Of a stretch of 64,000 nt of DNA, positions 38,810 to 63,649 are shown piece by piece. The position numbers and the translations under genes were made by a program. Under the pieces are notes generated by a model. It had not been told where the DNA came from. It did no database searches and worked only from the letters and a program-made list of their open reading frames with translations. How positions within the stretch are numbered: position 1 is the stretch's first letter; each line of letters opens with the position of its first letter. The stretch lies in IMG/VR virus record IMGVR_UViG_3300009079_000019, positions 1-64,000 of that record, one strand, 5' to 3'. The DNA is from a virus.

Positions 38810-39065
38810 CAGCGAGCGGGGAGTGACCCACCCCATTCAGGCGGCGGTCACGGGCAGCGGCAATTCGGTCTGCCTTTGCCTGAGCGGCGAAGCGTTGGGC
38901 GTTGGTGGTCTTGTCTCCGACCCACTGCCGACCCAGACCGGTTACGGGGGTCAGGGTCATGCCACGCCCCGAACCGTTGGCAGAGTTGACTGCCATAGAG
39001 GCACGAACGCCATCGGCGCCGGAACCCAGATGACCGATGGCGGTGTGTTGGTTGTGAAGTGCCAT
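38799..39065 (-). CDS. GC-rich island protein, 88 aa
   Basis: An 88-aa Gly/Ala/Arg-rich protein (MALHNQHTAIGHLGSGADGV start). Supported by a promoter (TGCTACAAT) 28 bases upstream and by its place in a regular series of promoter-gene units. No family recognised. A run of ten C lies directly before the start on the coding strand. Confidence 0.6.
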   Translation of the reverse strand: MALHNQHTAIGHLGSGADGVRASMAVNSANGSGRGMTLTPVTGLGRQWVGDKTTNAQRFAAQAKADRIAAARDRRLNGVGHSPLAARF

Positions 39066-39068
39066 GAT

Positions 39069-39078
39069 GGGGGGGGGG
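39069..39078. repeat. Ten-base G:C homopolymer in a leader
   Basis: Ten consecutive G on the plus strand (C on the mRNA), four bases upstream of the 88-aa gene start, where the ribosome binding site would be. Confidence 0.7.
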
Positions 39079-39092
39079 TGTGAACTGAGTGA

Positions 39093-39098
39093 ATTGTA
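39093..39098 (-). promoter_or_regulatory. Early-type promoter -10 box (TACAAT)
   Basis: TGCTACAAT on the minus strand, leader TCACTCAGTTCACACC, ahead of the 88-aa gene. Confidence 0.55.
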
Positions 39099-39145
39099 GC
39101 ACGAATGGGGTCAGAACCCCAACCAGACCAGGAACGACCAGAGGG

Positions 39146-39358
39146 TCACCCCAGAGCATAACGGTTCAACCACTGCCCAACGCTCTGCTGCGGATTGAGC
39201 AGGCGGAGCATATCACGGCGGCGGACGGTATGGGTGCTGAGGTGACCCGACCGCCAGAAGACGGTGATATTGCGCTTCCGGAAGCGAAGGCGGAGTTCAG
39301 AGCAGGCGCTGCTCGGTACGTCCTGCCAGATGATGACGGTGTAGAGGGGGTTACGCAT
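39146..39358 (-). CDS. GC-rich island protein, 70 aa
   Basis: A 70-aa Arg-rich protein (MRNPLYTVIIWQDVPSSACS start; LNPQQSVGQWLNRYALG end). The start is chosen as the first ATG after the cassette leader; an in-frame ATG 33 bases earlier falls inside the promoter. Function unknown. Confidence 0.55.
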   Translation of the reverse strand: MRNPLYTVIIWQDVPSSACSELRLRFRKRNITVFWRSGHLSTHTVRRRDMLRLLNPQQSVGQWLNRYALG

Positions 39359-39386
39359 GAGGGTCGGTTGCTTGTGAACTGAGAGA

Positions 39387-39392
39387 ATCATA
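39387..39392 (-). promoter_or_regulatory. Early-type promoter -10 box (TATGAT)
   Basis: TGGTATGATTCTCTCAG on the minus strand, 29 bases before the 70-aa gene. Confidence 0.55.
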
Positions 39393-39433
39393 CCACGAAT
39401 CGGGGGCAGGGAACGAACCCCACCCCCACGAAC

Positions 39434-39679
39434 TCACCCCAACCAGGTCAGGCGCTTTGCTTCGGGGTTACAGTAGAACTGATGACCCGGACCCTGCCAA
39501 CCCACGAACGGGGTGTGAAGGTCTGCCAACTCAACGGCGGATAGACCATCGGACTCCATGGAGCGACCCAGCACATCATCACGGTGGGAGTTGAGTTGCG
39601 GGCGACCCTTGGAAACGTTGCGGGAGACCCATACGGTCTGGCGGGTCTGAAGGTCGGTTGCTGGAGAGAAGAGTGCCAT
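39434..39679 (-). CDS. GC-rich island protein, 81 aa
   Basis: An 81-aa protein (MALFSPATDLQTRQTVWVSR start; PFVGWQGPGHQFYCNPEAKR near the end). Start chosen after the promoter leader. The pattern suggests a small compact domain; no family recognised. Confidence 0.55.
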   Translation of the reverse strand: MALFSPATDLQTRQTVWVSRNVSKGRPQLNSHRDDVLGRSMESDGLSAVELADLHTPFVGWQGPGHQFYCNPEAKRLTWLG

Positions 39680-39707
39680 CGGTGTTGGTTGGTTTGGAAC
39701 TGAGAGA

Positions 39708-39713
39708 ATCATA
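39708..39713 (-). promoter_or_regulatory. Early-type promoter -10 box (TATGAT)
   Basis: TGCTATGATTCTCTCAG on the minus strand, nearly identical to the box at 39387, 29 bases before the 81-aa gene. Confidence 0.55.
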
Positions 39714-39726
39714 GCATGGAATGGGG

Positions 39727-39891
39727 TCAGAGGGAAACCCACCCCTGCTTAATGCGGCGCTCAAGGTGGCGGGCAGCAAGGTCCTCTTTACGGGTCATCG
39801 CTGCCTGACCGGGACGGGGACCACGGCGGGGCAGGCGGGTGACCTTGAATTCTCCGGAGGCAATGGCAGCGGTCAGTTCGGCAGAGGTCAT
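39727..39891 (-). CDS. GC-rich island basic protein, 54 aa
   Basis: A 54-aa basic protein (MTSAELTAAIASGEFKVTRL; then LPRRGPRPGQAAMTRKEDLA; ends QGWVSL). It has a clear promoter and fits the spacing of the series. The Arg/Lys content suggests nucleic-acid or protein binding; function unknown. Confidence 0.6.
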   Translation of the reverse strand: MTSAELTAAIASGEFKVTRLPRRGPRPGQAAMTRKEDLAARHLERRIKQGWVSL

Positions 39892-39919
39892 CGGGGTCGG
39901 TGTCGGTGGAACTGATAGT

Positions 39920-39925
39920 ATTGTA
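39920..39925 (-). promoter_or_regulatory. Early-type promoter -10 box (TACAAT)
   Basis: TGCTACAATACTATCAGTTCC on the minus strand, 29 bases before the 54-aa gene. Confidence 0.55.
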
Positions 39926-39937
39926 GCAGATCAGGGG

Positions 39938-40168
39938 TCAGGCAGCAGTCAGAACCCGTCCGACCCGCAAATCATAAACCTTAGGGGTTTTGGTGACCTG
40001 ATCGGGTCCGACCTGCTCAACGGTTGCCCGCTTGATATTGATTCCGTTGGAGGGGTTGCCCAACAGACGATATCCCATCTGAGGGGAAACGCCCTCGGGG
40101 AAGCGGACGAACTGAACCATAGGAGTGACCTTGTTTCGGCGGGAGAAGCGGGTAACCTTGAGGATCAT
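39938..40168 (-). CDS. GC-rich island protein, 76 aa
   Basis: A 76-aa beta-rich protein (MILKVTRFSRRNKVTPMVQF; YRLLGNPSNGINIKRATVEQ). Start chosen after the promoter leader rather than the upstream ATG at 40306, which lies in the antisense of the neighbouring gene. No family recognised. Confidence 0.55.
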   Translation of the reverse strand: MILKVTRFSRRNKVTPMVQFVRFPEGVSPQMGYRLLGNPSNGINIKRATVEQVGPDQVTKTPKVYDLRVGRVLTAA

Positions 40169-40191
40169 CGGGATTGGTTGCGGTTGATAGT

Positions 40192-40197
40192 ATTGTA
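40192..40197 (-). promoter_or_regulatory. Early-type promoter -10 box (TACAAT)
   Basis: TGCTACAATACTATCAACCGC on the minus strand, 24 bases before the 76-aa gene, sharing its leader with the boxes at 39920 and 40379. Confidence 0.55.
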
Positions 40198-40202
40198 GCA
40201 GG

Positions 40203-40355
40203 TCAGCGGGGCAATGGGGGGCAGTCCAGCGAACCGCTACGGTGGCAGATTTCCGCCTGCTCCGCTTCCAGTGTGGCGCCGATGGTGGAGAGGGCAGCGT
40301 TGCCAATCATCAGGCAGAGGGCACAGAATCCGATGGGGAACAGAGCGCGGGTCAT
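40203..40355 (-). CDS. Small secreted or membrane protein, 50 aa
   Basis: A 50-aa protein with a signal-peptide-like N-terminus: Arg3 then the hydrophobic run ALFPIGFCALCLMIGNAA, followed by a polar tail with Cys. It may sit in the membrane or be exported. Supported by promoter and series context only. Confidence 0.55.
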   Translation of the reverse strand: MTRALFPIGFCALCLMIGNAALSTIGATLEAEQAEICHRSGSLDCPPLPR

Positions 40356-40378
40356 TCGGGTCGGTTGCGGTTGATAGT

Positions 40379-40384
40379 ATTGTA
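40379..40384 (-). promoter_or_regulatory. Early-type promoter -10 box (TACAAT)
   Basis: TGCTACAATACTATCAACCGC on the minus strand, an exact copy of the element at 40192, before the 50-aa gene. Confidence 0.55.
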
Positions 40385-40405
40385 GCAGGTCGGGGGCAGG
40401 ACCCC

Positions 40406-40585
40406 TCAGATTCCGTTGAGGAAGTCTGCCAGTGCCTCATCGTATTCTGCTTTGGTTTGGAAGGTCCGCCCGTGGATGGTTCGGGGATACGTGGCATCCA
40501 AACCAGCGGCAGCAACGTTCCGGCAGTCCTGCTCATCGTATCCCATTTCAATCAGGGTTGCGACGTAGGGGTTGAAGGCGGTCAT
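40406..40585 (-). CDS. UBA-like small protein, 59 aa
   Basis: A 59-aa protein. The segment YVATLIEMGYDEQDCRNVAA recalls a UBA/TS-N helical bundle (LxxMGxxxxxxxxA). The rest (FQTKAEYDEALADFL) is helical. Function unknown. Confidence 0.55.
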   Translation of the reverse strand: MTAFNPYVATLIEMGYDEQDCRNVAAAGLDATYPRTIHGRTFQTKAEYDEALADFLNGI

Positions 40586-41154: not shown

Positions 41155-41180
41155 TTGCTTGGGTTGTTTGGTATGAATCA

Positions 41181-41186
41181 ATTATA
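41181..41186 (-). promoter_or_regulatory. Early promoter -10 box (TATAAT)
   Basis: CCTTATAATTGATTCATACC on the minus strand, 26 bases before the 86-aa gene. No good -35 box is visible; its place is taken by a GC-rich stem-loop. Confidence 0.65.
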
Positions 41187-41228
41187 AGGGGTGGAGAGGG
41201 TGCCAGGGGCACCCGATGTGCCAGTGCC

Positions 41229-41426
41229 TCAGGCGGCACACAGCAGTGCCGATTCCATATTCACCTCCCGAACATCCATCTTGGAGTAATCATAACCCTC
41301 CTGCTCCTCAAGATACACAAGGTATGCATTTGCAGTGGAGAAGCAGTCAAACAAGCGGAGCGATTTGAAGTCCTCACCTTCATAATCAAAACCACCGATG
41401 ACAGCGTAGACTTTAGTGATTTGCAT
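41229..41426 (-). CDS. Small conserved protein, 65 aa
   Basis: A 65-aa protein (VYAVIGGFDYEGEDFKSLRL; DCFSTANAYLVYLEEQEGYD), a family I recognise from cyanophage early regions without known function. The N-terminal strand and Gly-rich turn suggest a small alpha/beta fold. Confidence 0.7.
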   Translation of the reverse strand: MQITKVYAVIGGFDYEGEDFKSLRLFDCFSTANAYLVYLEEQEGYDYSKMDVREVNMESALLCAA

Positions 41427-41452
41427 TTGCTTGGGTTGCGTGGTATGAATCA

Positions 41453-41458
41453 ATTATA
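41453..41458 (-). promoter_or_regulatory. Early promoter -10 box (TATAAT)
   Basis: CCTTATAATTGATTCATACC on the minus strand, an exact repeat of the 41181 element, before the 65-aa gene. Confidence 0.65.
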
Positions 41459-41489
41459 AGGGGTGGAGAGGGGTCCTGGGAGACCCCGT

Positions 41490-41511
41490 GTGCCACTAGG
41501 GCAACTGTCAC
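41490..41511. repeat. Gene-end inverted repeat GTGCCA...TGTCAC
   Basis: Imperfect inverted repeat straddling the stop codon of the 64-aa gene. One of at least 15 relatives found at gene ends between 41 and 64 kb. Confidence 0.6.
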
Positions 41512-41702
41512 ATCCAACCGCAGCGGGGGCAGGCAGGATGACCATTACAACCGCAGCGGGGCAGGGTGAGAATACCTATCAGGGTGTTGAGGTTACGCTC
41601 ATCAGCGGTGCCTGCCTTACGGTCTGCCTCAGCGATGGCAGCGGCAGCGATGGCACGGGACTGGGCGGCACGGTCCTGAGCGGTGATGGCGTTGCGGGTC
41701 AT
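41508..41702 (-). CDS. Ala-rich protein with C-terminal zinc motif, 64 aa
   Basis: A 64-aa protein with an Ala-rich helix (SRAIAAAAIAEADRKAG) and a C-terminal four-Cys motif (RCGCNGHPACPRCGWM) that could bind zinc. Start follows the cassette leader. Function unknown. Confidence 0.65.
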   Translation of the reverse strand: MTRNAITAQDRAAQSRAIAAAAIAEADRKAGTADERNLNTLIGILTLPRCGCNGHPACPRCGWM

Positions 41703-41729
41703 TCGGGTCGGTTCGTTTGGTATGAATCA

Positions 41730-41735
41730 ATTATA
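41730..41735 (-). promoter_or_regulatory. Early promoter -10 box (TATAAT)
   Basis: TATAATTGATTCATACC on the minus strand before the 64-aa gene. Immediately upstream is the stem-loop GGGGGCA-TCAGG-TGCCCCC (41745-41763). Confidence 0.65.
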
Positions 41736-41773
41736 AGGGGTCAGAGGGGGCATCAGGTGCCCCCTGTGTGCCA

Positions 41774-41941
41774 CTACTGAAGGTGGGCGAACTGTGCCAG
41801 CGATGAGGGGCAGATGTGGGAGGGTGACCCGCAGGAGCGGTAGAAGTCTACCATCCGCTCCGCTTCGGGAAGGGTGGGGAACCACTGGGAGCGCCACTCG
41901 GTCTGGTTGTAGGGGGTCTGGTAGCGGACTTCGATTCGCAT
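41774..41941 (-). CDS. Small protein, 55 aa
   Basis: A 55-aa protein (MRIEVRYQTPYNQTEWRSQW; FPTLPEAERMVDFYRSCG). The pattern strand-loop-helix fits a small ferredoxin-like or DUF fold. Series context and promoter support it; function unknown. Confidence 0.6.
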   Translation of the reverse strand: MRIEVRYQTPYNQTEWRSQWFPTLPEAERMVDFYRSCGSPSHICPSSLAQFAHLQ

Positions 41942-41966
41942 CGGTTGGGTTGTTTGGTATGAATCA

Positions 41967-41972
41967 ATTATA
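41967..41972 (-). promoter_or_regulatory. Early promoter -10 box (TATAAT)
   Basis: TATAATTGATTCATACC on the minus strand before the 55-aa gene. Confidence 0.65.
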
Positions 41973-42003
41973 AGGGGTCGGAGGGTGCCAGCGGACCCCC
42001 AGT

Positions 42004-42025
42004 GTGCCAGCGGTCAGACTGTCAC
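42004..42025. repeat. Gene-end inverted repeat GTGCCA...TGTCAC
   Basis: Straddles the stop codon of the MutH-like gene; same family as the repeat at 41490. Confidence 0.6.
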
Positions 42026-42606
42026 AGGACCTCCTTCCCGAACTTGCCACAGAGGTAAAATGCCATACCCTTATCTTTGAGGGTGCAATTTGCAAAGGTC
42101 AGAGGAACATAGCGACCGTTAGTTTTAGATGCTTTGGTGCGGATTTGCAGCAGTCCGTTAGGTCCGGTGATAGTGTTGAGTATACTGCCAGAGTCAAATG
42201 AACTGCGGATGGTATCACAAATGAAGGTGTAATCCTCTGCCAGTTCCTGATAGTGCTCAGGGTGAGTCTCAGGATTCAGAACCTCAGTACCCACATAATC
42301 ATTGGCACGGGTGAAACCAACGTAGATGGTCTGAGATAGTTTTTCTCCTACCTTACTATCAGTGAAACTAACACCGTCTTCGATGATTTCAGAGAGGCAG
42401 TGCTTCAACTGTGTGACGGCGATAGACTCACCAACTGTGAAAGTCTTAAGTTCACCGTCCACCAAATCTTTCAGGTTGGAACTGTTAGGAATGCCAAGGG
42501 CAGTTTCAATCAGTTGCCCACGCGAACCTTTGTTTTTACCGGGTTTGGCAAATGCATCAAAGTTGGTGACCTTGAGTTGAGCGGCGACTTGGAGAGTGTT
42601 GAGCAT
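42022..42606 (-). CDS. MutH/Sau3AI-like endonuclease
   Basis: A 194-aa protein of the MutH/Sau3AI nuclease fold. The segment NKGSRGQLIETALGI matches the MutH helix with its catalytic Glu (E34). The metal-binding motif appears as DLVDGELKTF: D47 or D50, E52 and K54 fit the D-x(n)-E-x-K signature. A later conserved Lys/Arg region is LLQIRTKASK. MutH nicks and Sau3AI cuts GATC; the site recognised here is unknown. It has its own early promoter and lies beside a nucleotidyltransferase. Possible roles are host DNA breakdown or exclusion of competing phages. Confidence 0.75.
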   Translation of the reverse strand: MLNTLQVAAQLKVTNFDAFAKPGKNKGSRGQLIETALGIPNSSNLKDLVDGELKTFTVGESIAVTQLKHCLSEIIEDGVSFTDSKVGEKLSQTIYVGFTRANDYVGTEVLNPETHPEHYQELAEDYTFICDTIRSSFDSGSILNTITGPNGLLQIRTKASKTNGRYVPLTFANCTLKDKGMAFYLCGKFGKEVL

Positions 42607-42628
42607 CGGGTGGGTTGCTTATGAATCA

Positions 42629-42634
42629 ATTATA
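42629..42634 (-). promoter_or_regulatory. Early promoter -10 box (TATAAT)
   Basis: TATAATTGATTCATAAGC on the minus strand before the MutH-like gene. Confidence 0.65.
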
Positions 42635-42680
42635 AGGGGTCAGAGGGGGGAAGGTCAACCCCCCGAACCATCAGTGTTGC

Positions 42681-43589
42681 TTATGCGACCTGAAACCTCC
42701 CGTGATTGAAGTTAGCATAGCTGAAGACCTCACGATTGACCAGTTTGAACATACCAAACTCATTGGTCATCACATAACCCTCAGAATCAATACGGTTGCC
42801 GTTGATGTATGCTGCGGGACCACTATTGCGGCACAGGAACAAACAATCATCTTTGATTGACTTCACTAGTGCCCACAGTCCAATCAGTTTAGGGTCACAA
42901 TCAAAGTCCTCAAACGTTTGGGCAATGATAGCATCACCGGCACGAATACAGGCATTCAGTTGTTTCTTAATCTTTGCTGCTTGCTTGTCAGAAACAAACT
43001 CTACAGCAAGTGCCATAGCACGGGTAAACTTTACCACTTCCTCAACATCAGCGAAGGACTCCTGATTGTGAAGGATATAAGTATCTGGTTTGACAAACTT
43101 TACGCTGTCGGTATCATTCCATATGGCACGGTCAGGCATTGCAACCGCATCACGAATGTCGCTCTCGGCATAATAGCAAGTGTGGGGTGCGATGATAATA
43201 GTCTGCCGCACAATCTCAGAAAACTTATAAGTGATGGTGTTCGGAGTATACTCATTAGAACCACCAAACCCGATGAAGTCTCCCTGATAGATTGTCTCTG
43301 TACGGGGCAGATACTTAAGACATGCCGCTAGAATCTCAATCAGTGCGGGTTGCTCACCATACAGAGCAAACACATCTTCTTGAGTATAACAGATTTTGAT
43401 TTTGACTTTGTTGAAGACACTTTTGGTGCCAACAAAGAACTTACCGTTGGCAGGATTCGTGCCCCAAACAATAGCAGGCGCTCCGTCAATCTTTACACTT
43501 AGGGTGCCGGGATTCACGAACCAATCCAGAACGGTCAGGTCCCCGGTCAGGATAGAATCTTCGGGGTGTTCGAGGTGGGTGTTTTTCAT
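42681..43589 (-). CDS. KxDG nucleotidyltransferase (DUF6267-like, ligase fold)
   Basis: A 302-aa protein. The N-terminal THLEHPEDSIL is the hallmark of a cyanophage family I know as DUF6267. Motif I of the ligase/capping nucleotidyltransferases is visible as SVKIDGAP (K33, D35, G36), the Lys that would carry AMP. FFVGTKSVF and YQGDFIGFG fit later core motifs, and VKFVKPD may serve as motif V. Substrate (DNA, RNA or other) is unknown. The -10 box lies only six bases before the start codon, so the mRNA may be leaderless. It stands directly upstream of the MutH-like gene. Confidence 0.75.
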   Translation of the reverse strand: MKNTHLEHPEDSILTGDLTVLDWFVNPGTLSVKIDGAPAIVWGTNPANGKFFVGTKSVFNKVKIKICYTQEDVFALYGEQPALIEILAACLKYLPRTETIYQGDFIGFGGSNEYTPNTITYKFSEIVRQTIIIAPHTCYYAESDIRDAVAMPDRAIWNDTDSVKFVKPDTYILHNQESFADVEEVVKFTRAMALAVEFVSDKQAAKIKKQLNACIRAGDAIIAQTFEDFDCDPKLIGLWALVKSIKDDCLFLCRNSGPAAYINGNRIDSEGYVMTNEFGMFKLVNREVFSYANFNHGRFQVA

Positions 43590-43595
43590 ACTGTT

Positions 43596-43601
43596 ATTAT
43601 A
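43596..43601 (-). promoter_or_regulatory. Early promoter -10 box abutting a start codon
   Basis: CCCCTTATAATAACAGTATG on the minus strand. Only AACAGT separates the -10 box from the ATG of the nucleotidyltransferase gene, so transcription should start at about the start codon. Confidence 0.6.
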
Positions 43602-43655
43602 AGGGGTCAGGAGGGGGTCTGGGGGGAACCTTGTGCCAGTTCCCCGAGTGGCACT

Positions 43656-43973: not shown

Positions 43974-43999
43974 TTGGTGGGGTTGCTTGGTATGAATCA

Positions 44000-44005
44000 A
44001 TTATA
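44000..44005 (-). promoter_or_regulatory. Early promoter -10 box (TATAAT)
   Basis: TATAATTGATTCATACC on the minus strand before the 105-aa gene. Confidence 0.65.
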
Positions 44006-44036
44006 AGGGGTCAGGGGGGGCAGCGGAACCCCCTCT

Positions 44037-44058
44037 GTGCCACTTAGGCAACTGGCAC
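44037..44058. repeat. Gene-end inverted repeat GTGCCA...TGGCAC
   Basis: A clean 6+6 copy with the stop codon of the 74-aa gene inside; on the minus strand the gene end reads GTGCCAGTTGCCTAAGTGGC. Confidence 0.65.
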
Positions 44059-44268
44059 AGCAGTTGCTGATTCTAACAAACCCTGAGCATATTCATCATC
44101 ATAAATCTCTTTAATCTCATTCACAATTTGCTCTTCAGTATAAGTCTCATACTCACGAACAAGTAAGTCAAAGGCAATAGTTGAAAGTTGGTCTACATCT
44201 AAACCCTCTACAATATCAGAAACATAGTTCTCAACGAACTGGGCGAATTGTGCTTTGTTAAGTGTCAT
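44044..44268 (-). CDS. Small acidic helical protein, 74 aa (VPVA family)
   Basis: A 74-aa acidic helical protein (QFVENYVSDIVEGLDVDQLS; ETYTEEQIVNEIKEIYDDEY). It is a paralogue of the genes at 46846 and 62918, sharing the plan (Y)V..I...D......DLL...Y....EEQ...EI, and ends VPVA like the 46846 copy. The family is common in cyanophages; function unknown. Confidence 0.7.
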   Translation of the reverse strand: MTLNKAQFAQFVENYVSDIVEGLDVDQLSTIAFDLLVREYETYTEEQIVNEIKEIYDDEYAQGLLESATAVPVA

Positions 44269-44281: not shown

Positions 44282-44335
44282 GTATGAATGTAGAATAACA
44301 GGATTGAAGCAGGAAGTCTAGGGGTCTTGTGTCAC
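44282..44335. repeat. Intergenic cassette copy with TATTCT box
   Basis: 54-base cassette nearly identical (two differences) to that at 46792-46845: GTATGAATGTAGAATAACAG then GGGGTCTTGTG. It includes the minus-strand -10 box TATTCT at 44292-44297 and leader TACATTCATACC, serving the 74-aa gene. Confidence 0.65.
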
Positions 44336-44356
44336 CTTATCAACTGTCACATAGTA

Positions 44357-45651: not shown

Positions 45652-45677
45652 TTGGTGGGTGTCTCAGGTACGAATGT

Positions 45678-45683
45678 AATATA
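45678..45683 (-). promoter_or_regulatory. Early promoter -10 box (TATATT)
   Basis: GTTATATTACATTCGTACC on the minus strand, 27 bases before the 42-aa gene. Confidence 0.55.
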
Positions 45684-45714
45684 ACAGGGTTTGTGGGGTC
45701 TCACAAGGGGGTCT

Positions 45715-45736
45715 GTGACACTCTACGAACTGGCAT
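45715..45736. repeat. Orphan gene-end inverted repeat
   Basis: GTGACA...TGGCAT copy with no gene ending in it. The 257-base gap 45652-45908 otherwise holds the promoter at 45678 and, near 45820-45875, a plus-strand TATAAT in a small palindrome (GATATAATATC) and a hairpin AGGGG...CCCCT ahead of the HNH gene. Confidence 0.5.
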
Positions 45737-45908
45737 AGGAGACCTTGACAAAACTAGGATTATATAAAAAAAATGAGGAAGGTCACCACACCCTCCTCAC
45801 ATACAACACCCATAACCCTATTGATATAATATCACCACAGGAGTAACTTTTGCTTAATAGCAGGGGCAAACATCATTCCCCTAAATAATATAAAATGATT
45901 AAAATAAA

Positions 45909-46403
45909 ATGTTAGAGCATCCGGTACATAAAGGTTATTATATCACAAAAGATGGAAAAGTGATAGGAAAAAAAGGAAACTATTTAAAATCATATGTTTG
46001 TCCTAAAGGTTATTTAAAAATGAAAGTTAATGGGATGAGTAGGTTAGTTCATAGATTAGTTGCAGAAACCTTTATTCCAAATCCAGATAATTTGCCTCAA
46101 GTTAATCATATTGATAAGGACAAAACAAATAATAACATTTCAAACTTGGAGTGGTGTAATGAGACATACAATAATCATCACGCAAAAGGTAATTTAGGAA
46201 TTATCTATAAGATATTCAAGGATGGAAGGTGTTATGCAGAAACTGACAATTTGCATAAGTTTTCGAAAGAACATAATGTATCAAAATCGAGAATGTACCT
46301 TATCGTAGGAACAGGAAAAGAATGTAAAGGATTTAGAGTTGAGTTGAATACTTTAGAACGAAGAACTAAACACATAACCATTCACGAAGTCAAAGTCATA
46401 TGA
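45909..46403 (+). CDS. HNH homing endonuclease with NUMOD4
   Basis: A 164-aa free-standing homing endonuclease on the opposite strand to its neighbours. The HNH core reads SRLVHRLVAETFIPNPDN, then VNHIDKDKTNNNISNLEW with the Asn/His pair, then ETYNNHH. The C-terminal part has a helix-turn-helix-like segment (KFSKEHNVSKSRMYLIVGTG) ending GFRVEL near residue 145. The last 17 codons run antisense through the end of ardA, suggesting the frame was extended by insertion there. Low GC compared with nearby genes. Confidence 0.88.
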   Translation: MLEHPVHKGYYITKDGKVIGKKGNYLKSYVCPKGYLKMKVNGMSRLVHRLVAETFIPNPDNLPQVNHIDKDKTNNNISNLEWCNETYNNHHAKGNLGIIYKIFKDGRCYAETDNLHKFSKEHNVSKSRMYLIVGTGKECKGFRVELNTLERRTKHITIHEVKVI

Positions 46404-46791: not shown

Positions 46792-46845
46792 GTATGAATG
46801 TAGAATAACAGGATTGAGGCAGGAAGTCTAGGGGTCTTGTGCCAC
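46792..46845. repeat. Intergenic cassette copy with TATTCT box
   Basis: Near-identical partner of 44282-44335. Contains the ardA -10 box TATTCT at 46802-46807 on the minus strand. Confidence 0.65.
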
Positions 46846-46860
46846 TTATGCCACTGGCAC
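46839..46860. repeat. Gene-end inverted repeat GTGCCA...TGGCAC
   Basis: Straddles the stop of the 63-aa gene, which reads VPVA then TAA, with GTGGCACAA immediately after, as in the paralogue at 44044. Confidence 0.65.
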
Positions 46861-47037
46861 ATCCTCCAACAGTTCTGGATTGTATTCTGTAACCTCTGTG
46901 ATGAGTTGCTCATCAGTATAATCCGAGAGATTATCCTTCAGAGTATCATAAACCAGACACTCCATAGTTTTATAATCCATACCCTCAATAAGTTGTTGAA
47001 TGTAATCTTCAACTAGTTGTGCTCGGTCGAATGTCAT
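46846..47037 (-). CDS. Small acidic helical protein, 63 aa (VPVA family)
   Basis: A 63-aa protein (AQLVEDYIQQLIEGMDYKTM; DNLSDYTDEQLITEVTEYNP; ends EDVPVA). It is a paralogue of 44044 and 62918. Own early promoter. Function unknown. Confidence 0.7.
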   Translation of the reverse strand: MTFDRAQLVEDYIQQLIEGMDYKTMECLVYDTLKDNLSDYTDEQLITEVTEYNPELLEDVPVA

Positions 47038-47053: not shown

Positions 47054-47107
47054 GTACGAATGTAGAATAACAGGTTTTGGGGGGAACCGCAACCCCCCTT
47101 GTGACAC
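47054..47107. repeat. 54-base cassette, copy A
   Basis: GTACGAATGTAGAATAACAG, then the stem-loop GGGGGG-AACCGCAA-CCCCCC (47079-47098), then TTGTGACAC. Includes the minus-strand -10 box TATTCT at 47064-47069 for the 63-aa gene. Almost identical to copies at 47337 and 47981. Confidence 0.75.
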
Positions 47108-47110
47108 TTT

Positions 47111-47323
47111 CTAGACTGTCACATACAACACTTTATCTGGTGCCCGATAGATATTCTCACCGTAGAAGACTTCCAACCGCAGAGTGTTACCATAGAAGTC
47201 ACTAGGTACACCATAACGAATGAAGTTACGTACGGTTGAATAATCACCAGTCAACCTACGGTGAGTCATACCAACATCGTGATATCCACCCTTAGCATTA
47301 GGTTTGGAGCAGATAATTTTCAT
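47111..47323 (-). CDS. Small protein, 70 aa
   Basis: A 70-aa beta-rich protein (MKIICSKPNAKGGYHDVGMT; LRLEVFYGENIYRAPDKVLY; ends VTV). The final codons overlap the gene-end repeat. Function unknown. Confidence 0.6.
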   Translation of the reverse strand: MKIICSKPNAKGGYHDVGMTHRRLTGDYSTVRNFIRYGVPSDFYGNTLRLEVFYGENIYRAPDKVLYVTV

Positions 47324-47336: not shown

Positions 47337-47390
47337 GTATGAATGTAGAATAACAGGTTTTGGGGGGAACCGCAACCCCCCTTGTGCCAC
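47337..47390. repeat. 54-base cassette, copy B
   Basis: Same arrangement as copy A with the -10 box TATTCT (47347-47352) for the 70-aa gene and the same G6/C6 stem-loop. Confidence 0.75.
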
Positions 47391-47393
47391 TAG

Positions 47394-47612
47394 TCAGACT
47401 GTCATATCCTGTTTCATTTTCGCAAGGTCTTCCATACAGTTAGGCATCATCTCCTGAACGTACTCATAGAAGTAAGAGTTATTCATCGATGCCAAACTTT
47501 GACGCTCTGCTTCTTCACTACCATCAACAAACTCAGACTCAGTATCAATCAGGCAGTCAATATACCAATCAATCAAGATTTGGCGTTGTGCTTTGGTGAG
47601 AAAAGTTGTCAT
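47394..47612 (-). CDS. Helical protein, 72 aa
   Basis: A 72-aa protein (MTTFLTKAQRQILIDWYIDC; NNSYFYEYVQEMMPNCMEDL; ends DMTV). The N-terminus resembles the VPVA family only weakly. The start is one base before the stop of the preceding gene. Function unknown. Confidence 0.6.
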   Translation of the reverse strand: MTTFLTKAQRQILIDWYIDCLIDTESEFVDGSEEAERQSLASMNNSYFYEYVQEMMPNCMEDLAKMKQDMTV

Positions 47613-47980: not shown

Positions 47981-48034
47981 GTATGAAAGTAGAATATCAG
48001 GTTTTGGGGGGAACCGCAACCCCCCTTGTGACAG
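47981..48034. repeat. 54-base cassette, copy C
   Basis: Third copy: GTATGAAAGTAGAATATCAG with the same G6/C6 stem-loop. -10 box TATTCT at 47991-47996 for the 68-aa gene. Confidence 0.75.
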
Positions 48035-48037
48035 TTC

Positions 48038-48193
48038 TCAGATTGGCATAGTAATCCAAATTGCCCGATCAGTTCCCATAGTAAACTGATTGTCCCAAAT
48101 GAAATGTGTTGCCTCCTGATTACTCAATTGCAACTCATTCATTAGAAACACAAGTGCCTCTTTAAATGTAACGAACCGATGAGTTTGTTTCAT
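48038..48193 (-). CDS. Small protein, 51 aa
   Basis: A 51-aa helical protein (MKQTHRFVTFKEALVFLMNE; NQEATHFIWDNQFTMGTD). Own promoter at 48215. Function unknown. Confidence 0.6.
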   Translation of the reverse strand: MKQTHRFVTFKEALVFLMNELQLSNQEATHFIWDNQFTMGTDRAIWITMPI

Positions 48194-48214
48194 GAATTCC
48201 TCAGGTATGAAAGT

Positions 48215-48220
48215 AGAATA
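48215..48220 (-). promoter_or_regulatory. Early promoter -10 box (TATTCT)
   Basis: GGTATTCTACTTTCATACC on the minus strand, 21 bases before the 51-aa gene; it lies close behind the stop of the membrane protein gene. Confidence 0.55.
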
Positions 48221-48227
48221 CCACCAA

Positions 48228-48476
48228 TCAGCGGCGTTTGGTAGTTTTCGGTGCCACCTTTACAACTGGCACATCAGTATCAACGAATGCCTGCAATTGC
48301 CCCACAATAGTATCAACGAACCGCAGCACGGTTTGAATCACCTTGCGGGTCTTTTCTGCGCCGTTGTTTTCTTTATAAGCACGAATGCCAAATTGTACAA
48401 TTCCAACAACGATTGCGGCGATGGTAGCAACATTTAGAATCAGAGTTTGGTAGAACTTAGCGACGAAGAGTTTCAT
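48228..48476 (-). CDS. Membrane protein, 82 aa, with cassette-derived tail
   Basis: An 82-aa protein with one membrane span (TLILNVATIAAIVVGIVQFG) and a basic tail (KTTKRR). The final residues DVPVVKVAPK are read through the gene-end repeat (GTGCCA...TGGCAC at about 48251-48272), which in sister genes holds the stop codon. A holin-like role is possible from size and topology, but nothing proves it. Confidence 0.65.
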   Translation of the reverse strand: MKLFVAKFYQTLILNVATIAAIVVGIVQFGIRAYKENNGAEKTRKVIQTVLRFVDTIVGQLQAFVDTDVPVVKVAPKTTKRR

Positions 48477-48526
48477 AATATTTGGGGTGACGAGGAGAAT
48501 GTAGAGAATTCCTCAACCACGAATGT

Positions 48527-48532
48527 AGAATA
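48527..48532 (-). promoter_or_regulatory. Early promoter -10 box (TATTCT)
   Basis: GTTATTCTACATTCGTGG on the minus strand, 50 bases before the 82-aa membrane protein gene. Confidence 0.5.
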
Positions 48533-48609
48533 ACCCCTCACCCGGCATTCCACAAGGGGTTCTGTGCCAGTTCGAGAATTGTCACATCATTATATCCAGA
48601 TACTAAAAA

Positions 48610-48829: not shown

Positions 48830-48832
48830 TTT

Positions 48833-48840
48833 TATTTATA
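48833..48840 (-). promoter_or_regulatory. T4-type late promoter with no protein gene behind it
   Basis: Perfect TATAAATA on the minus strand, three bases from the start of an 18-bp stem and not followed by a reading frame for 350 bases. Confidence 0.65.
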
Positions 48841-48847
48841 TAAGTTT

Positions 48848-48869
48848 GTGCCAATTAATGAAGTGGCAC
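48848..48869. repeat. Gene-end inverted repeat GTGCCA...TGGCAC
   Basis: Clean 6+6 copy just after the stop codon of the 50-aa gene, without the promoter half of the cassette. Confidence 0.6.
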
Positions 48870-48870
48870 A

Positions 48871-49208: not shown

Positions 49209-49240
49209 AATACTCGTCGAGATTGTGTGTATACTAGATG

Positions 49241-49269
49241 ATTGTAGCACAGATCTCGACTAGATGCAA
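49241..49269 (-). promoter_or_regulatory. Promoter TTGCAT-17-TACAAT
   Basis: Sigma-70-like pair on the minus strand: -35 TTGCAT (49264-49269), 17-base spacer containing CTAGTCGAGA, -10 TACAAT (49241-49246). It drives the 48-aa gene. Confidence 0.65.
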
Positions 49270-49410: not shown

Positions 49411-49416
49411 TGGGGC

Positions 49417-52847: not shown

Positions 52848-52868
52848 CATTCTCCTTGTAATACAGAT

Positions 52869-52926: not shown

Positions 52927-53662
52927 ATAGTTTTTTTCCACGACCACGAACCCAATTTTCTCCGGGACATTCTTCAGTAAATTTAGTATTTCCTTTGCCA
53001 TCGTTCCACCATTTTTTATCTTTATTTGCCTCACCTATTTTTCTTTTAGTTTCTTCTGAAGGTGATTTGCCGTAAAGATAGTGTTTTTCTCCACTATATT
53101 TACCTTTAAGTGCTTCACTCTGTTTTCTTCTGCTTTCTTCTGAACGTGATTTACCGTACATAGCATTATTTTCACCTTTCTGTGCCTCACTCATTCTTTT
53201 TCTGGTTTCTTCAGAAGGAGATTTTTCATAATTATGATTTTTTTCACCTTTCTGCCTCTCACTTAATTTTTTTCTGGTTTCTTCAGAAGGAGATTTCCCA
53301 TAATTATGAGAATTCTTACCTCGTTTACCGTATTGGGGATTATTTTTACCTTTCTTTGCTTCACCAATCTTTCTTCTGGTTTCTTCACTTTTAATAGTGC
53401 CAGAAGCACCTTCACCACCATTAGTTCTATTATGAAGAATACCAGTTCCTAAATCCTTTCTTCCGAAGATAGCAATCATATAAATTTCGTGCCTGAATGC
53501 TTCTTGTTCTGATAGGTTTTGTTTTAGGAATATTATTCTTGATTTATCTTTTGGTGGTTTTAGTCCTTTTCTATTGGTGGAATAAATTCTTCCTCCAGTT
53601 CCTTTACCAACATAATAAGGTGTCTTATCTTCACGCAAATATGCGTAAGTGTAGTAATACAT
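52916..53662 (-). CDS. GIY-YIG homing endonuclease with NUMOD3 repeats
   Basis: A 248-aa segF/SegB-like free-standing endonuclease. The GIY-YIG domain spans about residues 1-90: YTYAYLREDKTPYYVGKGTG with the catalytic Arg in GGRIYS and Glu in EIYMIAIFG. Residues 90-215 hold five NUMOD3 DNA-binding repeats of the form PSEETRKKxSExxKGxxNHNYGKS. The C-terminus (KWWNDGKGNTKF; GENWVRGRGKKLCDT) is a typical recognition tail. It has a late promoter and lies behind a terminator, so it is expressed late and independently of the genes upstream. Confidence 0.9.
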   Translation of the reverse strand: MYYYTYAYLREDKTPYYVGKGTGGRIYSTNRKGLKPPKDKSRIIFLKQNLSEQEAFRHEIYMIAIFGRKDLGTGILHNRTNGGEGASGTIKSEETRRKIGEAKKGKNNPQYGKRGKNSHNYGKSPSEETRKKLSERQKGEKNHNYEKSPSEETRKRMSEAQKGENNAMYGKSRSEESRRKQSEALKGKYSGEKHYLYGKSPSEETKRKIGEANKDKKWWNDGKGNTKFTEECPGENWVRGRGKKLCDT

Positions 53663-54743: not shown

Positions 54744-54771
54744 TTGCTGTTTGCGAATTGCGTATGAGACT

Positions 54772-54777
54772 ATTATA
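54772..54777 (-). promoter_or_regulatory. Early promoter -10 box (TATAAT)
   Basis: CCCTATAATAGTCTCATACG on the minus strand, 28 bases before the 74-aa gene. Confidence 0.65.
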
Positions 54778-54782
54778 GGGCA

Positions 54783-54998
54783 TCAAGGGGCATCAGTGGG
54801 ATGCTCTTGTGCCAGTTCGTCAGGTGTCTCATCACTCAAAGAAACCCTGAGATTATCACCCCCAATATGAAGGTGAAATATCCTTCCATCATTCAAGTAT
54901 ATTCCACACCAATATACATCAGTATCCATATTTTCCCAGTGAACCATCTTCACATCTTCCAACACAAACTCATCAGGATTGGTAAGTCTTTCAGTCAT
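54783..54998 (-). CDS. Small protein, 71 aa, with cassette-derived tail
   Basis: A 71-aa beta-rich protein (DVYWCGIYLNDGRIFHLHIG; DNLRVSLSDE). Its last residues, TPDELAQEHPTDAP, are translated from the intergenic cassette: the gene-end repeat is read in a frame that avoids the TGA used as stop by sister genes. Function unknown. Confidence 0.6.
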   Translation of the reverse strand: MTERLTNPDEFVLEDVKMVHWENMDTDVYWCGIYLNDGRIFHLHIGGDNLRVSLSDETPDELAQEHPTDAP

Positions 54999-55962: not shown

Positions 55963-55985
55963 TGGAGTTCTGTGTGTTCTTATGT

Positions 55986-55991
55986 ATTATA
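55986..55991 (-). promoter_or_regulatory. Early promoter -10 box (TATAAT)
   Basis: GCCTTATAATACATAAGAAC on the minus strand with stem-loop GGGGCACCAGATGCC just upstream; 24 bases before the 86-aa gene. Confidence 0.65.
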
Positions 55992-56033
55992 AGGCATCTG
56001 GTGCCCCTGTGGAGGGGTGTCTGTGCCAGTTCG

Positions 56034-56534
56034 TCAGGTGTCCAACAGTGCCTTAAGAGACTTAAGTGTAGATTTAAGTTTCTCATTTTCTTCCTCAAGT
56101 TCTTTAATCTTGAGGTCTTTATCATCTTGAAGAACTTCTTTCTTCTCAAGAATGGTTCCAGTTACGTTAGCACCCACAAGGTTAGCACCCTCAAGGTTAG
56201 CACCCTCAAGGTTAGCACCCTTAAGGTCAGCACCCTTAAGGTTAGCATACCTAAGGTTAGCATCCTCAAGGTCAGCACCCTCAAGGTAAGCACCCTGAAG
56301 GTTAGCATCCCGAAGGTCGGCACCCACAAGGTTAGCACCCTTAAGGTCAGCACCCTCAAGGTTAGCACCCCGAAGGTTAGCATCCTCAAGGTCAGCACCC
56401 ACAAGGTTAGCACCCTCAAGGTCGGCACCCTCAAGGTTAGCACCCTTAAGGTTAGCATCCCGAAGGTTAGCACCCCAAAGGTCAGCACCTTTAAGGTTAG
56501 CAAAGGGTTTGATTTCGTATCCGTTGATGTTCAT
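56034..56534 (-). CDS. Pentapeptide repeat protein with coiled-coil tail
   Basis: A 166-aa protein. Residues 12-125 are about 23 tandem A(D/N)LxG/x pentapeptides ([20 protein letters not shown] and so on), predicted to fold as a right-handed beta helix that can mimic DNA. Residues 130-166 are a charged coiled coil ([20 protein letters not shown]), probably for dimers. The stop codon lies in the gene-end repeat. Pentapeptide proteins can inhibit gyrase; that function is not shown here. Confidence 0.85.
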
Positions 56535-56557
56535 CAGGTTTCTGTGTGTATGAGACT

Positions 56558-56563
56558 ATTATA
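56558..56563 (-). promoter_or_regulatory. Early promoter -10 box (TATAAT)
   Basis: CCCTATAATAGTCTCATACAC on the minus strand, 23 bases before the pentapeptide gene, preceded by the stem-loop GGGGCACCAGATGCCC. Confidence 0.65.
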
Positions 56564-56602
56564 GGGCATCTGGTGCCCCTGTGGAGGGGGTCTGTGCTGT
56601 CC

Positions 56603-56953: not shown

Positions 56954-56977
56954 AATGTGTTTGTGCTTATGAGACTA

Positions 56978-56983
56978 TTATAG
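56978..56983 (-). promoter_or_regulatory. Early promoter -10 box (TATAAT) overlapping a stop codon
   Basis: CCCTATAATAGTCTCATAAG on the minus strand, 25 bases before the 116-aa gene. Its TAA is also the stop codon of the 83-aa gene. Confidence 0.65.
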
Positions 56984-57229
56984 GGCATCCACAGGGGGAT
57001 TGGTGGGGTCTTGTGCCAGTGTCTCAAGTGTCACAGTCTCCCGAAGTTCTTTAATGAGTTCCTGTAAATCTCTTACATCTATGAGATCTTCACCCTCACC
57101 ATCAGTATATGAATATTCCAGTATAACAAACTCCAGAGCAGCAGCAATTACTTTCTCTCTGTTTCCTCTTTTAGGTCGCAGAGTATGAGGCATCGTTGCT
57201 TCTATAATTCGGTCTGCTGGTGATAACAT
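56978..57229 (-). CDS. Helical protein, 83 aa, with cassette-derived tail
   Basis: An 83-aa protein (EKVIAAALEFVILEYSYTDG; VRDLQELIKELRE). The last part, LETLAQDPTNPPVDAL, is translated from the intergenic cassette and stops at the -10 box of the next promoter. It looks related to the 83-aa gene at 57546. Function unknown. Confidence 0.6.
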   Translation of the reverse strand: MLSPADRIIEATMPHTLRPKRGNREKVIAAALEFVILEYSYTDGEGEDLIDVRDLQELIKELRETVTLETLAQDPTNPPVDAL

Positions 57230-59880: not shown

Positions 59881-59901
59881 CGGTTTGTTTCGTATGAGAC
59901 T

Positions 59902-59907
59902 ATTATA
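59902..59907 (-). promoter_or_regulatory. Early promoter -10 box (TATAAT)
   Basis: GCCTTATAATAGTCTCATACG on the minus strand with stem-loop GGGGCACCAGATGCC upstream; 22 bases before the 77-aa gene. Confidence 0.65.
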
Positions 59908-59957
59908 AGGCATCTGGTGCCCCTGTGGAGGGGTCTTGTGCCGGTTTGGGAAGTGTC

Positions 59958-60155
59958 CTACCTCGCATCCTTTTCAAGTGTCTCAATACAGTCCATCCAT
60001 CCAGCATTATAATCGGCATCATACTTGGTTTCTTCTCTATGATGAGTTTTCAACCAGTCCTTTACGACATCCACAATCTCATTCGCAATCACATCACCAG
60101 ATTGAACGGCATCGTGAGTATAATACCATTCTGTAAGTCGTTCGTGGAGTTTCAT
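59958..60155 (-). CDS. YNAGW-family protein, 65 aa
   Basis: A 65-aa protein (MKLHERLTEWYYTHDAVQSG; ADYNAGWMDCIETLEKDAR). The end YNAGWxDxIxTLxK is shared with the gene at 61706 (YNAGWNDAIKTLKDKLR) and, more loosely, with 60152. Function unknown. Confidence 0.65.
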   Translation of the reverse strand: MKLHERLTEWYYTHDAVQSGDVIANEIVDVVKDWLKTHHREETKYDADYNAGWMDCIETLEKDAR

Positions 60156-61987: not shown

Positions 61988-62169
61988 AGTTTTACGGGTT
62001 GTTGAGGGTCTTGTGTCCAAAGTTGTTTATATGTAATCCATTTTTCTACACTAGTTTCCTGTTGTGCCGTCCAGTGGTTCCCATACTCATCAATCGCATC
62101 CAAATAATGAATACCTGTCTTGGGGCAGATTACTCTGGATACTTGTGTGAATTTTAGTCGTTCAGTCAT
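61954..62169 (-). CDS. Small protein, 71 aa
   Basis: A 71-aa protein (MTERLKFTQVSRVICPKTGI; DAIDEYGNHWTAQQETSVEK). The segment HYLDAIDEYGNHW is typical of small phage beta proteins. Function unknown. Confidence 0.55.
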   Translation of the reverse strand: MTERLKFTQVSRVICPKTGIHYLDAIDEYGNHWTAQQETSVEKWITYKQLWTQDPQQPVKLCLKPTSQKFS

Positions 62170-62344
62170 ATCCCTCAACACCCATATCATACTGTGGTTT
62201 TGGTTGTCCTGCCATATTATAGCACCAATCACAAAACTCCATAGTTTCAATCATATCCGCATTCCAATTACAACACTCCACAGCAGTATGAAGAGTTGAT
62301 AGAAACTCTGGTGTGAGAAGTTCTTTGAGTTCTTGTTTTTTCAT
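62162..62344 (-). CDS. Cys-containing protein, 60 aa
   Basis: A 60-aa protein (MKKQELKELLTPEFLSTLHT; VECCNWNADMIETMEFCDWC). Four Cys in pairs could bind metal. Function unknown. Confidence 0.6.
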   Translation of the reverse strand: MKKQELKELLTPEFLSTLHTAVECCNWNADMIETMEFCDWCYNMAGQPKPQYDMGVEGYD

Positions 62345-62574
62345 CAGTTCAACTCCATTTCAATACGATTGATTGCTGTTTGGTTTGCTTGAGGATTAGG
62401 AACATTTGAGAGTAGGTGAATGATTTCATAAAGTGTATCTCTACGAATTTGTTGAGCAAAATAAATGATTTCTTGAGCAGTTCCACTATATTCTACCCAA
62501 GTTTTTCCATCCTCTTCTGCTTCCCATTCTTCAAGGAACTCATCAGCAACTTCCAGGATTTGTTCTTTAGTCAT
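62344..62574 (-). CDS. Acidic helical protein, 76 aa
   Basis: A 76-aa protein (MTKEQILEVADEFLEEWEAE; QIRRDTLYEIIHLLSNVPNP). One-base overlap with the next gene. Function unknown. Confidence 0.6.
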   Translation of the reverse strand: MTKEQILEVADEFLEEWEAEEDGKTWVEYSGTAQEIIYFAQQIRRDTLYEIIHLLSNVPNPQANQTAINRIEMELN

Positions 62575-62744
62575 TTCGGCACACAGAAATAAGAATAATT
62601 ACCAGCAATCATACCAGAAACCCACTTTCCACCTTCTTTCAAACATTCTGTTTTCTCATAATTCACAACAAATCCGTTAAGGATTGCGAAAAGTAGAAGT
62701 ATTCCAAGAATAATAAAAAGTATTGTGAGTTCTTCTTTATCCAT
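62571..62744 (-). CDS. Single-pass membrane protein, 57 aa
   Basis: A 57-aa protein with a membrane span (LTILFIILGILLLFAILNGF) and an outer tail with two Cys (ECLKEGGKWV; YSYFCVPK). Layout like the 73-aa gene at 50603. Function unknown. Confidence 0.6.
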   Translation of the reverse strand: MDKEELTILFIILGILLLFAILNGFVVNYEKTECLKEGGKWVSGMIAGNYSYFCVPK

Positions 62745-62916
62745 TATCTTCATCCTCCACAGGAAACATAGATTCATACTCTTCATCAGTCAGTGTGAGA
62801 TACTGAACATCAGCATCTTGGTGTTCTTCGGCATACACCAGTTGATAGTGAGCAAAATCACTCAAACTGGTGCTACCATATTCTACAAGACCATCAACAA
62901 GGCAGAGGTAGTTCAT
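62737..62916 (-). CDS. Small protein, 59 aa
   Basis: A 59-aa acidic protein (MNYLCLVDGLVEYGSTSLSD; LTLTDEEYESMFPVEDEDNG). Starts right after the upstream stop (TGAAATG). Function unknown. Confidence 0.6.
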   Translation of the reverse strand: MNYLCLVDGLVEYGSTSLSDFAHYQLVYAEEHQDADVQYLTLTDEEYESMFPVEDEDNG

Positions 62917-62917
62917 T

Positions 62918-63097
62918 TCAGGTGTTCTCCTTAAACCATTCATCACCATAGATTTCAAGGATTTGTTGAGTGAGTTCTTCCTCACTCAAATCCTTATAGT
63001 CATTCACCAAATACTCATAAAGCATTTCTTCTTTGATTTGTTGAGACATACTATCCATAATGAAATTCACATAATCATCAACGAGTTTGGTAGTCAT
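62918..63097 (-). CDS. Small acidic helical protein, 59 aa (VPVA-family relative)
   Basis: A 59-aa protein (LVDDYVNFIMDSMSQQIKEE; NDYKDLSEEELTQQILEIYG). It shares the VPVA-family plan (VxDYVxxIxDxM then DxxxLxEEELxxxIxEIY) with 44044 and 46846 but has a different end. Overlaps the next gene by four bases. Confidence 0.65.
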   Translation of the reverse strand: MTTKLVDDYVNFIMDSMSQQIKEEMLYEYLVNDYKDLSEEELTQQILEIYGDEWFKENT

Positions 63098-63243
63098 TCT
63101 AATACATCAATAAGTTTGTTAAACATCCAAGAGATTATGAGTGCCTGTCCCCAAGTAAGAGGAAAGAAAGACACAAGTGCCCAACCCATCAATCCCACAA
63201 AAATATAAAATCCAATTGTTTCACCAATCTCGTGTTTAGTCAT
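63094..63243 (-). CDS. Membrane protein, 49 aa
   Basis: A 49-aa hydrophobic protein (TIGFYIFVGLMGWALVSFFP; GQALIISWMFNKLIDVLE). One or two membrane spans. Function unknown. Confidence 0.6.
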   Translation of the reverse strand: MTKHEIGETIGFYIFVGLMGWALVSFFPLTWGQALIISWMFNKLIDVLE

Positions 63244-63244
63244 T

Positions 63245-63466
63245 TCAGTTCACCTTGAAGAGTTTGTAGATGGCATCAGCAACAGCAAGTGCTTCTACAT
63301 TTCCCATACAAATATGTTGAATTCGTTTATCTCCTTTTTCTTTATCAAACTGCCAATAAGAAATGGTGCATCCATCGCATCCCACATCAATATGAGTGTC
63401 TTCTACCGTATACCAATAATCTCCGTATTCTTGAATACGAACTTGGTTTGTGATTTCAATAGTCAT
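63245..63466 (-). CDS. Small beta protein, 73 aa
   Basis: A 73-aa protein (MTIEITNQVRIQEYGDYWYT; CDGCTISYWQFDKEKG). Possible paralogue of 61289. First gene of the long operon down to 59958, with a cassette promoter. Function unknown. Confidence 0.6.
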   Translation of the reverse strand: MTIEITNQVRIQEYGDYWYTVEDTHIDVGCDGCTISYWQFDKEKGDKRIQHICMGNVEALAVADAIYKLFKVN

Positions 63467-63492
63467 TTGGAGTTTGTCTTGTGTATGAATGT

Positions 63493-63498
63493 ATTATA
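63493..63498 (-). promoter_or_regulatory. Early promoter -10 box (TATAAT) overlapping a stop codon
   Basis: CCCTATAATACATTCATACAC on the minus strand, preceded by GGGGCACCAGATGCCC, 27 bases before the 73-aa gene. Its TAA ends the 51-aa gene. Confidence 0.65.
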
Positions 63499-63649
63499 GG
63501 GCATCTGGTGCCCCTGTGGAGGGTGTCTGTGCCAGTTTCTCAAGTGTCCTCTGTTCCTCAAGGATTGTTTCAAAAATCATGCTAGTGTAGGTTTCTGTTG
63601 CTCCCCAGTGTCTTGCTAATCTTATAATGTCTTTATCTTTATAAGTCAT
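63494..63649 (-). CDS. Small protein, 51 aa, with cassette-derived tail
   Basis: A 51-aa protein (MTYKDKDIIRLARHWGATET; MIFETILEEQ). The N-terminal part looks like a helix-turn-helix fragment. From about residue 35 on, the sequence RTLEKLAQTPSTGAPDAL is read from the intergenic cassette and stops in the -10 box, exactly as in the gene at 56978. Confidence 0.6.
   Translation of the reverse strand: MTYKDKDIIRLARHWGATETYTSMIFETILEEQRTLEKLAQTPSTGAPDAL

Follow-up and report, generated by a model that had tools for sequence, protein, structure and literature searches.

Between the small genes of a T4-like Synechococcus phage we find a repeated unit of about 90 bases, here called the composite element, in which a 24-bp two-fold symmetric box stands at a near-constant distance from a promoter-like -10 sequence and start signal. 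The DNA analyzed (the window) comprises the first 64,000 bases of the 71,483-base virus record IMGVR_UViG_3300009079_000019, for which the nearest named records are S-SRM01, S-PM2, S-WAM1 and other T4-like Synechococcus phages. Tail sheath, terminase, tail sheath stabiliser and baseplate wedge proteins are encoded at 0–39 kb, and a run of small minus-strand genes follows beyond 39 kb. The consensus order of the element is TGTGNCACTTGANGAACTGGCACA (the box), a spacer of 29–30 nt, TATAAT, five bases, CATAC, a short A/C-rich leader and ATG, and the element repeats among the small genes of variable regions. The box, its fixed spacing, the -10, the complementarity of hairpin arms in the spacer and the recombination joints inside the element are all directly observed. 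It is probable that the element is a gene joint with two jobs, ending the upstream transcript and starting the next.

A symmetric box at a fixed distance from the -10

An earlier note on this DNA, made by reading its letters, had described a minus-strand array of -10 boxes with CATAC-containing leaders, and the counts bear this out. TATAAT-N5-CATAC occurs nine times on the minus strand of the window and never on the plus strand, against 0.04 expected per strand, and the same motif lies nearly always on one strand in 20 related phage records. In the window, a profile composed of the box, the spacing and the -10 detected 16 strong elements; every one is on the minus strand, with none on the plus. 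For comparison, about 50 stretches of related environmental phages were gathered by exact search with three motif variants; gene calls were simple open reading frames, and pairs of related phages are non-independent. Across 629 kb of the window phage and its relatives, the profile returned 225 forward and two reverse matches, with none in shuffled sequence. A profile of the box alone found 21 minus-strand boxes in the window, all at 41.2–63.6 kb, of which 20 have a -10-like hexamer 29–31 nt downstream as judged by reading the sequences. Since the box is two-fold symmetric, its plus-strand matches coincide with the minus-strand boxes. The array is nevertheless sparser than the earlier note had it, which placed an element before nearly every gene or short operon: a strong copy is found at 16 of 98 gene junctions, and about 60.2–63.2 kb is a single long gene run without any element.

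The invariant component is the box and not the stem-loop. The inverted repeat that the earlier note recognized at gene ends does exist, and it proves to be the most conserved part, held at a fixed distance from the -10; the GC-rich stem-loop is not universal and varies in sequence and register, and the spacers upstream of the -10 sequences at 44297 and 46807 fold to 0.0 kcal/mol. In 120 of 151 distinct copies, 30 or 31 nt separate the TGGCAC word of the box from the -10, and in a set of 238 spacers less than 80% alike the length is 29 or 30 nt in 211. The box usually overlaps the stop codon of the upstream gene, with the stop inside the box in most cases, and leaders are mostly 14–22 nt long. 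From the arrangement of these parts, transcription is expected to start at CA, with the A of CATAC as the predicted +1.

This geometry was also recovered by a scan that allowed any gap of 10–40 nt, using the pattern AACTGGCACA-N(10-40)-TATAAT-N5-CATA. IMG/VR contained at least 135 matches, and among the matches listed 134 of 135 had a spacing of 27–31 (85 at 29, 36 at 30, 13 at 27, 28 or 31), the last being at 20. Cellular genomes totalling 257 Gb, scanned in the same way, yielded 20 matches, none with a cyanobacterial title and spread over gaps of 10–40 nt; these are only scattered chance hits. Among isolates, the box/-10 geometry is common to S-SRM01, S-PM2 and Syn9, and S-CRM01 has the box along with several box/-10 pairs. 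The five Syn9 pairs lie at 43–49 kb (43.1–49.2 kb), with none on the reverse strand and none in shuffled sequences.

When promoters were picked on the -10 and initiator alone, 130 of 141 had a strong box at 27–32 nt, 11 had none, and no intermediates were found. A -35 match of at least 5 was present in 4 of the 11 box-less promoters compared with 9 of the 130 boxed ones (p=0.01). Because box-less promoters more often carry a -35, these results suggest that the box does the job of the -35. In the canonical sigma-70 test for a TTGACA-like -35 at 16–18 bp, the mean match was 2.91 of 6, short of the canonical form; of the sigma-70-like features, the -10 and initiator are present and the -35 is mostly absent from the gap. 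The earlier note had set the stem-loop in the place of the -35; the stem-loop does overlap that place, but the likely substitute is the upstream box. In the relatives G003 and G011, tRNA-like sequence lies behind promoters with the same -10 and initiator, a TTGACT -35 and no box (L061 6794 and L075 16199).

The two arms of the box do not covary, pairing at 5.50 within elements and 5.68 when arms are re-dealt among elements, and the box is thus no RNA stem. Its appearance is that of a protein-binding site, and we treat it as a putative one. Three known sites were considered. The TGGCAC word raised the possibility of a sigma-54 promoter (TGGCAC-N5-TTGC), which was ruled out as there is no -12 element at the right distance and rpoN is not known from cyanobacteria. 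Neither the NtcA site (GTA-N8-TAC) nor the T4 MotA box agrees with the consensus of the element.

Elements of the window and their neighbors

The elements and related sites of the window are listed below by coordinates, strand and description.

39080–40410, minus: TACAAT/TATGAT promoter-like sites with short GC hairpins; 0 box matches here; worn-down or different type
41171–41240, minus: composite element; box 41217–41240, spacer 30 nt, -10 at 41186, predicted +1 41174; profile score 55.2; hairpin GGGTGCC/GGCACCC (-13.6)
41443–41512, minus: composite element; -10 at 41458; hairpin GGGGTC/GACCCC; profile and folding
41720–41790, minus: composite element; -10 at 41735, spacer 31; hairpin GGGGGCA/TGCCCCC; profile and folding
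41957–42026, minus: composite element; -10 at 41972; profile and folding
42619–42671, minus: box-less promoter; -10 at 42634; TTGACC -35-like site in the loop of a GGGGGG/CCCCCC hairpin
43587–43655, minus: composite element; -10 at 43601, spacer 30; box score 31.8 and sequence
43990–44059, minus: composite element; -10 at 44005; profile and folding
44282–44351, minus: composite element without hairpin; -10 at 44297 (TATTCT); spacer minimum free energy (MFE) 0.0 kcal/mol
45668–45737, minus: composite element; -10 at 45683 (TATATT); profile and folding
46792–46861, minus: composite element without hairpin; -10 at 46807 (TATTCT); spacer MFE 0.0 kcal/mol
47054–47123, minus: composite element; -10 at 47069; G6/C6 hairpin; profile and folding
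47337–47406, minus: composite element; -10 at 47352; G6/C6 hairpin; profile and folding
47981–48050, minus: composite element; -10 at 47996; G6/C6 hairpin; profile and folding
48205–48273, minus: composite element; -10 at 48220 (TATTCT), spacer 29; profile and folding
48517–48586, minus: box with TATTCT 30 nt downstream; -10 about 48532; box score 28.7 and sequence
52864–52927, minus: box with TATAAT 29 nt downstream; AT-rich spacer without GC hairpin; ribosome-binding-site-like leader; box score 36.1
54762–54831, minus: composite element; -10 at 54777; profile and folding
55976–56045, minus: box with TATAAT at 55991, spacer 30; shortened initiator; box score 32.8 and sequence
56548–56602, minus: element whose box is cut by an internal deletion (GGACA/GCACAGA join); -10 at 56563
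56967–57035, minus: composite element; -10 at 56982; profile and folding
59892–59960, minus: composite element; -10 at 59907; profile and folding
63483–63551, minus: composite element; -10 at 63498; profile and folding

The four blocks of box types described earlier are present when the sequence is read, namely TACAAT/TATGAT at 39–40.4 kb, TATAATTGATTCATACC at 41–44 kb, TATTCT at 44–48.5 kb and TATAATAGTCTCATAC at 54–60 kb. The TACAAT/TATGAT sites of the first block do exist, but they have no box and are of a different or worn-down type. Neighboring elements are more alike than random pairs in the window phage and one relative (p<0.001), and not in most other phages. As the blocks recur in relatives and this local similarity is significant only in some phages, the several waves of spread that the earlier note envisaged are not needed.

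A few of the surrounding genes and sites are worth recording. The DUF6267 gene lies 3' of the element at 43587–43655, and the predicted +1 of that element is the A of the gene's ATG (43589), which would yield a leaderless transcript. The element upstream of the pentapeptide-repeat protein gene (56034–56534, minus strand) is the one that lost its box through internal deletion. At 48830–48870 on the minus strand, a box has no clear -10 where one would normally lie; it is followed by TATAAATA, resembling a T4-type late promoter. A NUMOD3-repeat endonuclease-like gene (52916–53662, minus strand), with about 84% identity over 1.2 kb to S-SRM01, is directly upstream of the box whose promoter is without a GC hairpin. 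Two HNH endonuclease genes (45909–46403 and 49634–50179, both on the plus strand) run opposite to all their neighbors; the former is missing in G003, where its flanks join directly. Finally, 49100–49450 is dense in repeats of the words TCTCGACGAG, CTAGTCGAG and CTAGTCTAG, partly within a small D/Y-rich reading frame, and this stretch is similar in G003, G012, G017 and S-SRM01.

Hairpins and joints inside the element

Hairpins are frequent in the spacer. In the set of 238, 59% of spacers fold to an MFE of -6 kcal/mol or lower, and a T-tract follows the hairpin in 24%. Re-dealing the left and right halves of spacers lowers the best stem (z 9.7 and 9.4), so the arms match within each element and are complementary beyond chance. 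The hairpins themselves vary in sequence, place, length and register; they are optional and not inherited in register. Covariation in the stems across related genomes had been named in the earlier note as a check. RNAalifold on 27 spacers of the TGATT class returned no common pairs, as the hairpins shift register and differ in length, and for this reason no covariance model was built. An Rfam search of 38.5–64 kb gave no match. Terminator-like sites in 39–59 kb number 13, compared with 15 expected, and several relatives have a textbook terminator, a hairpin with a T-tract, at the equivalent place in the spacer.

Where two elements have only the downstream gene in common, it is chiefly the promoter half and leader that agree, with a leader identity of 0.69 against a baseline of 0.39 and a box identity of 0.73 against 0.68; where only the upstream gene is common to both, the box half agrees, with a box identity of 0.89 and a leader identity of 0.43. 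The left half thus tracks the upstream gene and the right half the downstream gene, which indicates crossovers inside the element. The relative G003 bears on the gain or loss of whole cassettes, which the earlier note had proposed to look for. Gene 41508–41702 and one element are missing there, and the joint falls inside an element; the promoter half of the element at 41443–41512 is joined to a different upstream gene. On its left side the joint agrees with the end of the gene that precedes the lost cassette, on its right side with the promoter and leader of the gene that follows, and its hairpin resembles that of a third copy.

Proposed function, alternatives and known systems

In the mechanism we propose, the right part of the element would be the promoter of the next small gene or operon. 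The 24-bp box, centered near -54, would replace the -35 hexamer by binding a putative protein, either phage-borne or from the host, and the bound protein would place host RNA polymerase on TATAAT-N5-C. The transcript would then begin at the A of CATAC and open with a 14–22 nt A/C-rich leader. In the middle part, the frequent hairpin may end or protect the upstream transcript; where it has a T-tract, as in some relatives, it resembles an ordinary terminator. The upstream stop codon usually lies in the left part. Because all copies share the core, recombination could join any upstream gene to any downstream gene with neither being broken. More tentatively, and on balance somewhat doubtfully, this may be a promoter class of T4-like cyanophages, apparently absent from cellular genomes, in which a box near -54 replaces the -35, is read by a factor delivered with the virion, encoded by the phage or hijacked from the host, and is fused to the 3' end of the preceding gene, making every junction interchangeable.

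Several points weigh against this proposal. We infer promoter activity, the start site, early timing, the box-reading protein and termination from the DNA sequence. No window element has a T-tract after its hairpin, so that none has the form of an intrinsic terminator and termination by the window elements is doubtful. Common descent could partly explain the constant spacing, and the training set of the profile overlaps partly with the sequences later scored; neither of the pattern scans, that of IMG/VR or the control on cellular genomes, rests on the profile's spacing, and nor does the re-dealing of the arms. Neighbor turnover at elements is 0.85 upstream and 0.79 downstream compared with about 0.78 elsewhere, which amounts to no excess, or to a weak one upstream only (p=0.025, with p=0.75 downstream, from non-independent pairs). 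An earlier family-level turnover test was dropped because it was inflated by paralogues. The region is plastic throughout, and elements are one kind of joint within it; elements as a shuffling engine are not supported.

One alternative is that this is a plain promoter-early stem-loop (PeSL) cassette, a host-sigma promoter behind an ordinary terminator, with the box a conserved joint end kept by recombination and without a role in initiation. The T-tracted hairpins in the spacers of many relatives (24% of 238) fit this explanation, as do TCCACA- or TTGAAC-like hexamers located about 16–17 nt upstream of the -10 in some copies and a -35 match of at least 5 in 27 of 238 copies, where 1.9% is expected. 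However, the hairpin varies far more than the box and spacing do, the latter two are retained without a GC hairpin in two window copies and in the copy at 52.9 kb, and box presence is all-or-none among promoters picked on the -10, leaving this explanation rather unlikely. The box might instead itself form an RNA hairpin or act as a terminator where genes end, in line with the annotation of S-CRM01, in which "Rho independent terminator" features lie over or beside boxes (125862–125891 and 137087–137103). We consider this quite improbable given that the box arms pair no better than re-dealt arms, the right arm is retained where the left cannot pair, and the distance to the -10 is fixed.

Selfish spread, in which mobile repeats are kept mainly through recombining and capturing genes, would account for the joints inside elements, the loss of one gene with one element in G003 and the local similarity of neighboring elements. 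Yet turnover at element junctions equals turnover elsewhere, and the element strand is nearly always that of the genes with conserved spacing, which fits function and makes this explanation highly improbable.

If the box acts as proposed, it bears on how transcription is ordered in T4-like cyanophages, which lack the T4 middle-promoter activators; these phages are said to be without motA/asiA (PMC5780444). A box of fixed geometry offers a concrete target, namely its binding protein. The box is found in many environmental phages and several isolates and not in cellular genomes, and could be used as a simple computational guide to promoter starts where the small genes are unknown, while the element gives a sequence-level view of small-gene exchange.

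The closest known arrangement is that of the PeSL cassettes, reportedly described in T4-type coliphages and other T4-like phages by Arbiol et al. 2010 and Comeau et al. 2014, both cited in PMC4503421. The likeness lies in a promoter and stem-loop between small variable genes with recombination joints inside the element. Unlike the PeSLs as reported, the element here has a two-fold symmetric box at a fixed distance and no clear -35, its hairpin is optional and mostly without a T-tract, and there is no excess turnover. The PeSL-like gene shuffling suggested in the earlier note stands for the promoter joined to a hairpin and for the joints inside elements, and not for turnover, which is not raised at elements. 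For S-PM2, PeSLs are discussed and few were seen, and an early promoter and stem loops are noted, including a stem loop at 11369–11391 (PMC4503421); the box and fixed spacing are not known to have been described there. That stem loop falls inside an S-PM2 element at about 11350–11420.

The element also resembles the T4 middle (MotA) promoter in having an upstream box instead of a good -35. The T4 MotA box lies near -30, whereas the box here is centered near -54, is two-fold symmetric and spans 24 bp. In the cyanophage Syn9, Doron et al. 2016 (ISME J) reportedly described a "novel regulatory element" of early genes, and the box here may be that element. In that case the box itself is already known, and the novelty lies in its fusion with the gene end, in a spacing that stays nearly constant among environmental phages and in the split-half evidence that recombination occurs within it.

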